Source: Deltaproteobacteria bacterium RBG_13_61_14 (lineage in GTDB: Bacteria; RBG-13-61-14). Taken from it: a stretch of DNA of 21,410 bases. The notes beneath the pieces were generated by a model, which saw only the letters and a program-made list of their open reading frames with translations, was not told the DNA's origin and ran no database searches. Positions 102-1,812 of the stretch are shown one piece after another. Numbering within the stretch: the first letter of the stretch is position 1; each line of letters begins with the position of its first letter. The DNA lies in contig MGQK01000113.1 in assembly GCA_001797815.1 (NCBI GenBank), forward strand, positions 1 through 21,410. The letters run 5' to 3'. The position numbers and the translations under genes were made by a program.

Positions 102-129
102 CAGTAAACAGTGCACAGTGGACAGTAAT
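102..129. repeat. Heptamer array CAGTNNN x4
   Basis: CAGT recurs at 102, 109, 116 and 123, exactly every 7 nt (units CAGTAAA, CAGTGCA, CAGTGGA, CAGTAAT). The first four bases are invariant and the last three vary. Confidence 0.8.
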
Positions 130-139
130 TCAAGTTGAT

Positions 140-159
140 GACAGACAGGAATGTCTGTC
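140..159. repeat. Perfect 8-bp hairpin with GGAA loop
   Basis: GACAGACA (140-147) and TGTCTGTC (152-159) are perfect inverted repeats around GGAA, which fits the GNRA tetraloop pattern. A run of C follows. It resembles, in its GACAG/CTGTC ends, the two palindromes at 17562-17584 and 19301-19323, so it may be a divergent member of the same REP-like family. There is no T-tract, so a terminator role is unlikely. Confidence 0.75.
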
Positions 160-196
160 CCCCTCCAGGAAGAGTTCACGGTTGATGGTCTTCCCC

Positions 197-217
197 GACC
201 TGCGACCTGCGACCGAC
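197..217. repeat. Heptamer array GACCTGC x3
   Basis: Three consecutive 7-nt units: GACCTGC (197-203), GACCTGC (204-210) and GACCGAC (211-217). The period matches the neighbouring arrays although the motif is unrelated. Confidence 0.75.
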
Positions 218-221
218 AGTT

Positions 222-297
222 CCGCGACCGGGGTGGCTTCGGCCGAGAGCTCCCTTCGGTCTGAGCCTCAGGGTCGAAGACAGCCGAACGGTCGCGG
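222..297. repeat. Nested inverted repeats
   Basis: CCGCGACCG at 222-230 is the exact reverse complement of CGGTCGCGG at 289-297. Inside lies a compact compound hairpin: CTTCG (254-258) pairs with CGAAG (275-279), and CTGAG (261-265) pairs with CTCAG (267-271). No protein is encoded across it. Function unknown. Confidence 0.6.
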
Positions 298-313
298 CTA
301 CTATCCTCTCGAT

Positions 314-341
314 ATACGAAATACAGAATACGAAATACAAT
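314..341. repeat. Heptamer array ATACRAA x4
   Basis: Units ATACGAA (314-320), ATACAGA (321-327), ATACGAA (328-334) and ATACAAT (335-341) follow each other with a 7-nt period. The array abuts the hexamer array that starts at 341. Confidence 0.8.
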
Positions 342-370
342 TCACGTTCAGGTTCACGTTCAGGTTCAAG
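341..370. repeat. Hexamer array TTCACG/TTCAGG x5
   Basis: TTCACG, TTCAGG, TTCACG, TTCAGG and TTCAAG follow in direct tandem. This is a 6-nt unit with a 12-nt higher-order alternation. It is the only array here that is not heptameric. Confidence 0.85.
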
Positions 371-395
371 GGAAAGAAGCCCTGAAATTGGTTGG

Positions 396-416
396 CGGTT
401 CACGGTTCGCGGTTCC
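396..416. repeat. Heptamer array CGGTTCN x3
   Basis: CGGTTCA (396-402), CGGTTCG (403-409) and CGGTTCC (410-416): six invariant bases plus one variable base, with a 7-nt period. Confidence 0.8.
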
Positions 417-428
417 CGGCGGAAAGAA

Positions 429-449
429 TTTTCGATTTTAAATTTTACA
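429..449. repeat. Heptamer array TTTTNNA x3
   Basis: TTTTCGA (429-435), TTTTAAA (436-442) and TTTTACA (443-449) follow with a 7-nt period. Confidence 0.65.
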
Positions 450-467
450 TTGGGGATTAACGGAAAG

Positions 468-502
468 ATTCAAATCCAAAATCTAAAATTCGAAATCCAA
501 AA
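468..502. repeat. Heptamer array TYYRAAA-like x5
   Basis: Five consecutive 7-nt units: ATTCAAA (468-474), TCCAAAA (475-481), TCTAAAA (482-488), TTCGAAA (489-495) and TCCAAAA (496-502). The units are close variants in a strict 7-nt register. Confidence 0.75.
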
Positions 503-529
503 TCACCGGCCCCTGCCACCCTGGGACCT

Positions 530-681: not shown

Positions 682-1812
682 TTAATAGGCTTGCAGCTCG
701 ACCAGGGTGGTCTTGTCCTTCTTGAAGACCACGAAGCGGTTGTCCTCGGTGACCTGGACGTCCCGGACCACGTCCTCGACCCCTTCCCGCCACCGCACTT
801 TGCGCTCCGGGATCCAGACCAGGATCAGCGACCATTGCAACTGGTTTTCCTGGCCGAAGATAAAGAGGCTGCGGTTGTCGCGGGAAAGGTTCATGAGCAA
901 GGGCTTGGAAAAGCCCAGGGTGAAAAGGGGCTTAAGCTCGGGTCCGGCGGTGAAGAGCTCGGCGGTGCGATAGACGCGGACCTGATGATCGGGCGTGGCA
1001 TAGGCGAACATGGAGCCGTCGGGCGACACGCTTCCGCTGATCCCGGGCATCGGCACCTTTTTCAGGGCGGTGCGGCTGATCAGGAAAAGCTCCTGGGCCT
1101 GGGGCCCGCCGAGAAAACGCCCGGCGAGTAAGACCTCGGCGTCATCCGAAAGAGCCAGGACCCGCATGTTGCGGCCCATGTCCCAGACCTGCCGGCCTTG
1201 CGGATCAAAGAGCAGGCCGGAGACCGAGTCGAACAGGTAATGCTCTTCGGGATCGAACATGACATGCCAGAGGTAAATTTCTTTTTCCCAGAGCAGATTC
1301 AGGTTCTGGTCATAGACCTTGGTGGTCTTTTCAAAGGGGTCGCCGAAAAGGATGAAGCGGCCGGAGGGGCTGAGCCGGCTGGTGTTGTAGCGGTAAGGGT
1401 TCTTTTTGACCCAGACCAGGTTGCCGGCGCCGTCCACCAGATACACGTCCAGGTCGAGCAGGTTGGTGTGCCGCCGCGGCTCGAGGTTGGTCTGGAACAG
1501 GACCCGCTGGCCGTCCCAGGAGATTCCGCCGCCGCCGATGTATTTCCAGCCCCGGCCCTCGCCCATCTTCCAGACCTGTTTGCCCTCGGCCCCTTCATAC
1601 CAGACGTGCTCCTGGGAGTGGAACATCACCTGGCCGGTGCGGCGGGCCAGGTAGAAATTCTGGATCTCTTCGGTAACGCTCTCCCGCCAGACCACCTTGG
1701 GCCAGTTGCCGCGGGGAGCACGGTCCGGGTTCTCTTGCTTGCGGGCCCAGGCCAGCGCCGCGGCGACGAGCAGCAGGCCGGCCAGCCACCGGTATTTTCT
1801 CATCATCCTCAT
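682..1812 (-). CDS. Secreted beta-propeller-like protein, function unknown
   Basis: The 376-residue product starts with basic residues followed by a hydrophobic stretch (about residues 7-22), which fits a signal peptide or N-terminal anchor. The rest alternates short beta-like segments with repeated phrases such as SPSGRFILFG, SPDGSMFAYA and TEDNRFVVF. This is the style of WD40/PQQ-like propellers and of proteins that compare stored values along a track. No catalytic motif is visible. Three in-frame ATGs (1812, 1806, 1803) compete: a GGAG about 9 nt upstream of the one at 1806 favours that start, but the first is kept here. It is transcribed away from the PIG-L gene, with only 67 nt between them. 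I do not recognise a named family. Confidence 0.75.
   Translation of the reverse strand: MRMMRKYRWLAGLLLVAAALAWARKQENPDRAPRGNWPKVVWRESVTEEIQNFYLARRTGQVMFHSQEHVWYEGAEGKQVWKMGEGRGWKYIGGGGISWDGQRVLFQTNLEPRRHTNLLDLDVYLVDGAGNLVWVKKNPYRYNTSRLSPSGRFILFGDPFEKTTKVYDQNLNLLWEKEIYLWHVMFDPEEHYLFDSVSGLLFDPQGRQVWDMGRNMRVLALSDDAEVLLAGRFLGGPQAQELFLISRTALKKVPMPGISGSVSPDGSMFAYATPDHQVRVYRTAELFTAGPELKPLFTLGFSKPLLMNLSRDNRSLFIFGQENQLQWSLILVWIPERKVRWREGVEDVVRDVQVTEDNRFVVFKKDKTTLVELQAY

Follow-up and report, generated by a model that had tools for sequence, protein, structure and literature searches.

The locus and its spacer

The window, which is the whole 21,410-nt stretch of DNA analysed here, comprises positions 1–21,410 of contig C113 within a 4.74-Mb draft genome. 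Its genes encode DsrA, DsrB, DsrO and DsrP, all above the NCBIfam cut-offs, as well as a DsrK-like protein, and the host organism is therefore likely a sulfate reducer, as judged from this gene content. At the start of the contig lies a spacer (1–681) that ends at the 3' end of a minus-strand gene. The 376-aa product of this gene had no match in NCBIfam, and a search of the window against Rfam 15 at the gathering score matched no known RNA family. The features of the spacer and its border are:

1–681: spacer, from the contig start to the 3' end of the minus-strand gene
77–101: apparent remnant of a Y1_Tnp element end
102–129, plus strand: CAGTNNA heptad array, three units followed by CAGT (lag-7 segment 102–126, TRF period 7)
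196–217, plus strand: GACCTGC heptad array, 2.7 units (lag-7 segment and TRF)
310–341, plus strand: ATACRAA heptad array (lag-7 segment and TRF)
341–368: 6/12-nt repeat TTCACGTTCAGG, 2.3 copies (TRF and lag analysis)
390–419, plus strand: CGGTTCN heptad array (lag-7 segment and TRF)
427–504: whole inverted AATCNRA element, 78 nt (32 + 14-nt loop + 32), read in register
427–458, minus strand: left arm AATTTTCGATTTTAAATTTTACATTGGGGATT, 32 nt, its outer part being the TTTTNNA array
459–472, no strand: loop AACGGAAAGATTCA, 14 nt, between the arms
473–504, plus strand: right arm AATCCAAAATCTAAAATTCGAAATCCAAAATC, 32 nt, the TYYRAAA array
531–651: palindromic element of about 121 nt, with 27-nt arms at 534–560 and 624–650
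682–1812, minus strand: 376-aa gene, bounding the spacer with its 3' end

Segment 77–101 (TCAGAGCTTCACTTTACACATAA) matches the 5' end of a Y1_Tnp (PF01797) element, L298, at 22 of 23 bases and directly precedes the CAGT array; it appears to be what is left of such an element end. The Y1 elements L288–L302 have inverted ends, GGGGTCAGNNCT...CTGACCCC, and carry heptads just inside the 5' end, the word differing from element to element.

A 7-nt period in the spacer

The preliminary description of this DNA had reported six stretches with a 7-nt period between positions 102 and 502 and had named a comparison with shuffled sequence beforehand as one of the checks that could refute them. All six are present. 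Autocorrelation at lag 7 over 102–502 was 0.401, compared with 0.249 in dinucleotide shuffles (z = 7.2), a level reached by none of 500 shuffles; lag 14 gave z = 4.0 and lag 8 was flat (z = −0.2). The summed lag-7 score of 1–681 was 76 (dinucleotide shuffles: mean 0.24, maximum 10), which rules out a chance origin. Six lag-7 segments (102–126, 196–214, 310–338, 390–419, 428–451 and 472–504) account for the signal, TRF assigned period 7 to five of the six stretches, and segments at other lags were limited to 6/12 and the harmonic 14. The period had been called strict: lag 7 is indeed dominant, but the 6/12-nt repeat at 341–368 lies in the same spacer and the period is therefore not strictly 7 all the way through. 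This exception is a TTCACG/TTCAGG hexamer array with a 12-nt period, and GTTCAC hexamers recur in L032 and L074.

The motifs had been taken to be six unrelated ones. TTTTNNA (429–449) and TYYRAAA (468–502) are mutual reverse complements and form the two arms of the inverted element at 427–504, so the spacer holds five families, not six. In addition to the lag-7 segments 428–451 and 472–504, genome-wide pattern matches support the left arm at 427–445 on the minus strand and the right arm at 472–497 on the plus strand. The arrays in the spacer have just 2.7–4.7 units each, and the strength of the case rests on the genome-wide and cross-phylum data, not on these copies.

Heptad arrays across the genome

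The spacer is not the only one of its kind. In 400 kb of unselected DNA from the same genome, intergenic arrays scoring 11 or more numbered 31 at lag 7, 22 at the harmonic lag 14, 11 at lag 8 and 0–8 elsewhere, placing tandem 7-nt intergenic units far above chance. The claim that different motifs have one period in common, rather than stemming from one decayed family, is borne out directly behind the 735 stop codons of long ORFs, where 36 arrays occurred at lag 7 and 0–1 at each other lag from 4 to 12. These positions alone yielded 19 consensus heptads, and many words recur in other spacers, which rules out a single decayed repeat family. Words seen include AAATCNR, AAGYCTA, CAGTNNA, ATACGNA, CGACCTA, GATTGCG, GACACYT, GAAGGGT and GGTTCAC, among others, and the word can drift within one array (L042:11911). 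Arrays of AAATYNR gave 124 matches in the genome, compared with 5 for the reversed control pattern.

Relatives of the spacer arrays are found among these. The array at 102–129 belongs to the ACAGTGN family, which recurs across the genome, also as inverted pairs; the GACCTGC array has relatives in CGACCTA/GTAGGTC arrays, including an inverted pair at L043:4750; the ATACGNA family recurs as inverted pairs in L041, L070, L071 and L074; and the GGTTCAC family, a relative of the CGGTTCN array, recurs in the same genome. We tentatively regard the spacer as a cluster of members of this genome-wide class, in which its four arrays without a partner would be single arms or remnants.

Array length is narrowly distributed. 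Unselected arrays have a median of 32 nt and a peak at 30–33 nt, about four heptads, and AGGC-type arms, as read from the sequence, span 30 nt (four heptads plus AG). Counted in whole heptads, AATC arms of the own genome have four units in 25 cases and five in none, and those of other phyla four in 99 and five in 11; arms that degenerate units interrupt are also counted under two and three units in this tally. Neighbouring arms stand in a fixed order, a GATT-arm followed by an AATC-arm, in 16 of 17 pairs in the own genome. The same order was seen in 115 of 125 pairs in other phyla, which had been found with a pattern of that order, so that only the own-genome count is unbiased. Of 16 own-genome pairs, 6 had a 14-nt loop and 3 a 21-nt loop; among pattern matches across the whole own genome, the loop was 14 nt in most of about 19 elements, the window copy included. 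A loop that is a multiple of 7 is not a universal rule (11 of 16 in the own genome, just 26 of 115 in other phyla). Own-genome loop sequences are mostly unrelated, and a conserved element sequence was accordingly not found in this genome.

Position, strand and fold

Of 42 array clusters, 25 touch a gene 3' end within 8 nt, compared with 9.9 upon random placement in the same spacers (maximum 19 in 1000 placements); gene 5' ends were touched by 5 clusters, with 9.5 expected. The position test was based on 47 clusters with called neighbours, and the gene calls are our own uncurated ORF scoring. The window copy sits 177 nt from the nearest stop codon (682–684) and does not adjoin it. In other phyla the 3'-end excess is weak (29 versus 21.1 at random, maximum 31), and convergent spacers (18) outnumber divergent ones (6). 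On the sense strand behind stop codons, G exceeds C in 40 arrays and C exceeds G in 5, a rule that holds in nearly all of the 19 consensus heptads. In another array-rich genome, G031, the arrays are unpaired and the strand rule is opposite (6 versus 1). At L093 of that genome, AGAAGACAGAAGACAGGAGACAGAAGA heptad arrays recur about 1 kb apart with shared flanks.

Thirty-one inverted heptad pairs gave a mean fold z of −5.8 for both strands; because complementary arms were the criterion for choosing them, the z-scores are partly selected. The window copy folds no better than its shuffles (z = −1.1 and −1.3). Variable arm positions pair in 14 of 52 cases, versus 34% with shuffled partners, which is not above chance, so fine pairing is not maintained; nor was compensatory change seen at these positions. 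Within arms, adjacent units resemble each other less than random units do (23% versus 35%). Together, these two observations indicate that the core and the spacing are kept, rather than every base pair or recent unit copies.

Stop-codon traps, in which a heptad containing a stop would run through every frame, were rejected, all three frames being closed in 8 of 46 arrays behind stops, versus 15.8 for column-permuted heptads. The G+C-rich stem and T run of an intrinsic terminator were not found in the AATC arms, which read as A+T-rich; a right flank of TTCTTT is present in some AATC copies only.

Arrays in other organisms

A scan for the inverted AATC pattern covered 84,980 bacteria and archaea, each species being represented by one genome. 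Pairs occur in at least seven phyla: Cyanobacteria, Chloroflexota, Acidobacteriota, Nitrospirota, Bacteroidota, Planctomycetota and Proteobacteria. Among the matches listed are Nostoc, Calothrix-like and other Cyanobacteria, Oscillochloris, Anaerolineae, Acidobacteria, Nitrospira, Deltaproteobacteria, Geobacter, Saprospiraceae, Flavobacterium, Planctomycetes and one Alphaproteobacterium. AATC-type arrays were seen in isolates and near-complete genomes of other phyla, and the reversed control pattern gave no matches in 14 array-bearing genomes. In a Nitrospira MAG (G065), 193 element matches in 2.9 Mb comprise AATC inverted pairs with a conserved loop (GAGGATATTAAGATTCCTC). This was the only genome where we found a conserved element sequence, and given its many copies and conserved loop, the element behaves there as a separate repeat family.

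Among 30 Flavobacterium species, 17 have an AATCTAA-type pair in the spacer before the gene whose product begins MKYYIVIP, and 13 have an AATTCCA/TGGAATT pair at the same place in this orthologous spacer. Supported branches of the flank tree require at least five changes between the two types. Some of these changes, e.g. in L255, may reflect interspecies recombination of the spacer. Arms can also be kept while loops differ (L253, L256, L259 and L261).

Comparison with known repeats

The preliminary description knew of no named element that places several motifs next to one another. This was nearly right, but close parallels have been published (PMC4679880, PMC4692102). Rehm et al. 2015 (PMC4692102) described GGGNATC and GGGGA(T/C)T repeats in Xanthomonas and Nostoc; in that study, heptameric repeats are stated to be over-represented in bacteria, and the length of DNA held by the polymerase is offered as a guess at the cause. 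Common to the Xanthomonas GGGNATC arrays and ours are 7-nt units with constant and variable positions, intergenic location and mostly four units, and in 70–75 cases neighbouring GGGNATC arrays lie on opposite strands (PMC4692102), like the inverted pairs here. The GGGNATC system is one G-rich family per genome and has been studied as a G-quadruplex former, whereas a single genome here holds at least 19 consensus heptads, most of them incapable of forming quadruplexes, and additionally shows a fixed loop and a strand rule behind stop codons. When motifs were compared by eye with the published words (GGGNATC, GGGGAYT, TAACTGA and STRR), GGATTGC-type arrays came near GGGGATT.

The STRR repeats of heterocystous cyanobacteria (Calothrix PCC 7601) are, as here, tandem and intergenic with several heptanucleotides per genome, three different ones as cited in PMC4692102. 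The inverted four-unit architecture present here is not described in the STRR accounts consulted. TAACTGA repeats of marine Beggiatoaceae, Cyanobacteria and Bacteroidetes (MacGregor 2015, PMC4679880) are likewise intergenic heptamers scattered over distant phyla and are mixed with other heptamers in Microcystis and Elizabethkingia; these immediately precede start codons as direct repeats (169 sets, with one indirect repeat), whereas ours are inverted pairs behind stops. In Geobacter metallireducens, four or five tandem heptanucleotides or four octanucleotides form paired opposite-strand sites at variable distance and have been called putative regulator sites (PMC2700814). These differ in their motifs (GGACCGG, MTYCTGA, GTTGCTYN), in their octamers and in being partly intragenic, and no stop-codon rule is given for them.

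Relative to this open-access literature, the combination of many words per genome with one common geometry, place and strand rule appears to be new, as does the alternation of words at an orthologous site.

Interpretation

REP and REPIN elements, which go with RAYT transposases, are short dispersed intergenic foldbacks, often paired, for which effects on transcript 3' ends have been proposed. Our reading, offered as plausible rather than established, is that the arrays are gene-end foldback elements of this REP-like kind whose conserved feature is geometry, not sequence. They share hairpin formation with REPs, as far as the selected pairs above are representative, and differ in having heptad-array arms, no conserved REP sequence and, unlike REPs beside RAYTs, mostly Y1 genes without an adjoining array. 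The basic part is an arm of about four 7-nt units (30–33 nt); arms are often paired in inverted order around a short loop and lie preferentially right behind stop codons. Since the arms are inverted pairs, foldback is possible on either strand, and in RNA the pair could serve as a bidirectional 3'-end hairpin that, like REP elements, terminates transcripts or protects their 3' ends. Both the unit and the four-unit length might be set by a putative factor or enzyme that advances 7 nt at a time as it reads or copies DNA or RNA. The heptad word would be replaceable because fold and spacing weigh more than sequence, an idea supported by the two families at one orthologous Flavobacterium spacer. 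Position, strand and symmetry are best accounted for by a foldback role at 3' ends, a reading that we consider plausible. Against it stand the poor fold of the window copy and its distance from a stop codon, the fine pairing that is not maintained, the opposite strand rule in G031 and the many arrays, four of them in this spacer, that lack a partner. It is more doubtful that the heptad arrays of the many phyla form one gene-end class, with conserved geometry, freely exchanged words and a putative factor that reads or builds in 7-nt steps. If geometry is indeed the conserved feature, sequence-similarity searches would miss the class, which would explain why just single motifs have been named so far.

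Two alternatives are unlikely. In the first, neutral minisatellite turnover, polymerase slippage that favours 7-nt steps both creates and renews arrays, whatever their word, and these are tolerated between genes. This would account for the many words with one period, the intergenic location and the word drift within an array, and heptamer over-representation in many bacteria, with slippage as a proposed cause, is cited in PMC4692102. It predicts a falling spread of unit numbers, not the peak at four with five nearly absent, and it predicts neither fixed-order inverted pairing nor a 14-nt loop nor the strand rule at gene ends. That adjacent units are no more alike than random ones also speaks against recent unit duplication. 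The preliminary description had suggested slippage or templated filling-in; as the whole story this is disfavoured, because slippage alone does not predict such specific constraints as a ceiling of four units, inverted order and the G>C rule behind stops.

The second of these improbable alternatives holds that the arrays are non-autonomous and mobile, resembling REPINs or MITEs, and are moved in trans by a transposase, possibly Y1, with one mobiliser for each heptad family. Fixed size and sharp ends speak for mobility, as do an element on C20, of which an inverted duplicate, loop and about 17 nt of flank included, lies at a distance of 3.4 kb, and the many copies with one conserved loop in Nitrospira G065. 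Y1_Tnp genes number 19 in the own genome, and two tandem heptads were found at the ends of 12 Y1 elements (lag-7 identity 0.68, versus 0.14–0.37 at other lags). Against this, the heptads at Y1 ends mostly differ from array heptads, no four-heptad array lies closer than 2 kb to most of the 19 Y1 loci (flanking ones occur at L287 and L304), and no target duplications were identified. The loops of most own-genome elements are unrelated, which speaks against recent copying of whole elements. Nor does Y1 copy number track array number, Nitrospira G065 having 2 Y1 genes and 193 element matches, and Y1 transposase dosage was not supported as the cause of the arrays.

The omega repressor, a plasmid-encoded ribbon-helix-helix protein, binds unspaced 7-bp heptads. 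By analogy, a dimer could sit on each 7-bp unit and spread over four units, and the constant cores with variable positions in fixed phase (AATCNR, CAGTNNA) and the four units with inverted neighbours would suit such protein-binding arrays. This is distinctly less probable than either of the foregoing: the 19 or more consensus heptads of one genome would call for many proteins, an identical AATC word turns up in at least seven phyla, and the arrays lie behind stop codons, not at promoters. Least credible of all is that the second arm serves as a Rho utilisation site by giving regularly spaced YC in C>G RNA behind the stop: right arms do carry 4.5 YC per 28 nt (versus 0.9 in left arms; C 6.9 versus G 2.3), with CC and TC the most enriched dinucleotides relative to column-permuted heptads, but the signal comes chiefly from two families, the descriptor spacing of YC is 9–13 nt (PMC9160355), not 7, and the hairpin would sequester the second arm in the first.

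A further repeat in the spacer

The palindromic element at 531–651 shares the spacer with the heptad arrays. It has 35 matches in the own genome, and seven other copies are 97–100% identical over at least 120 nt; by this near-identity, it appears to be a recently spread MITE-like hairpin.
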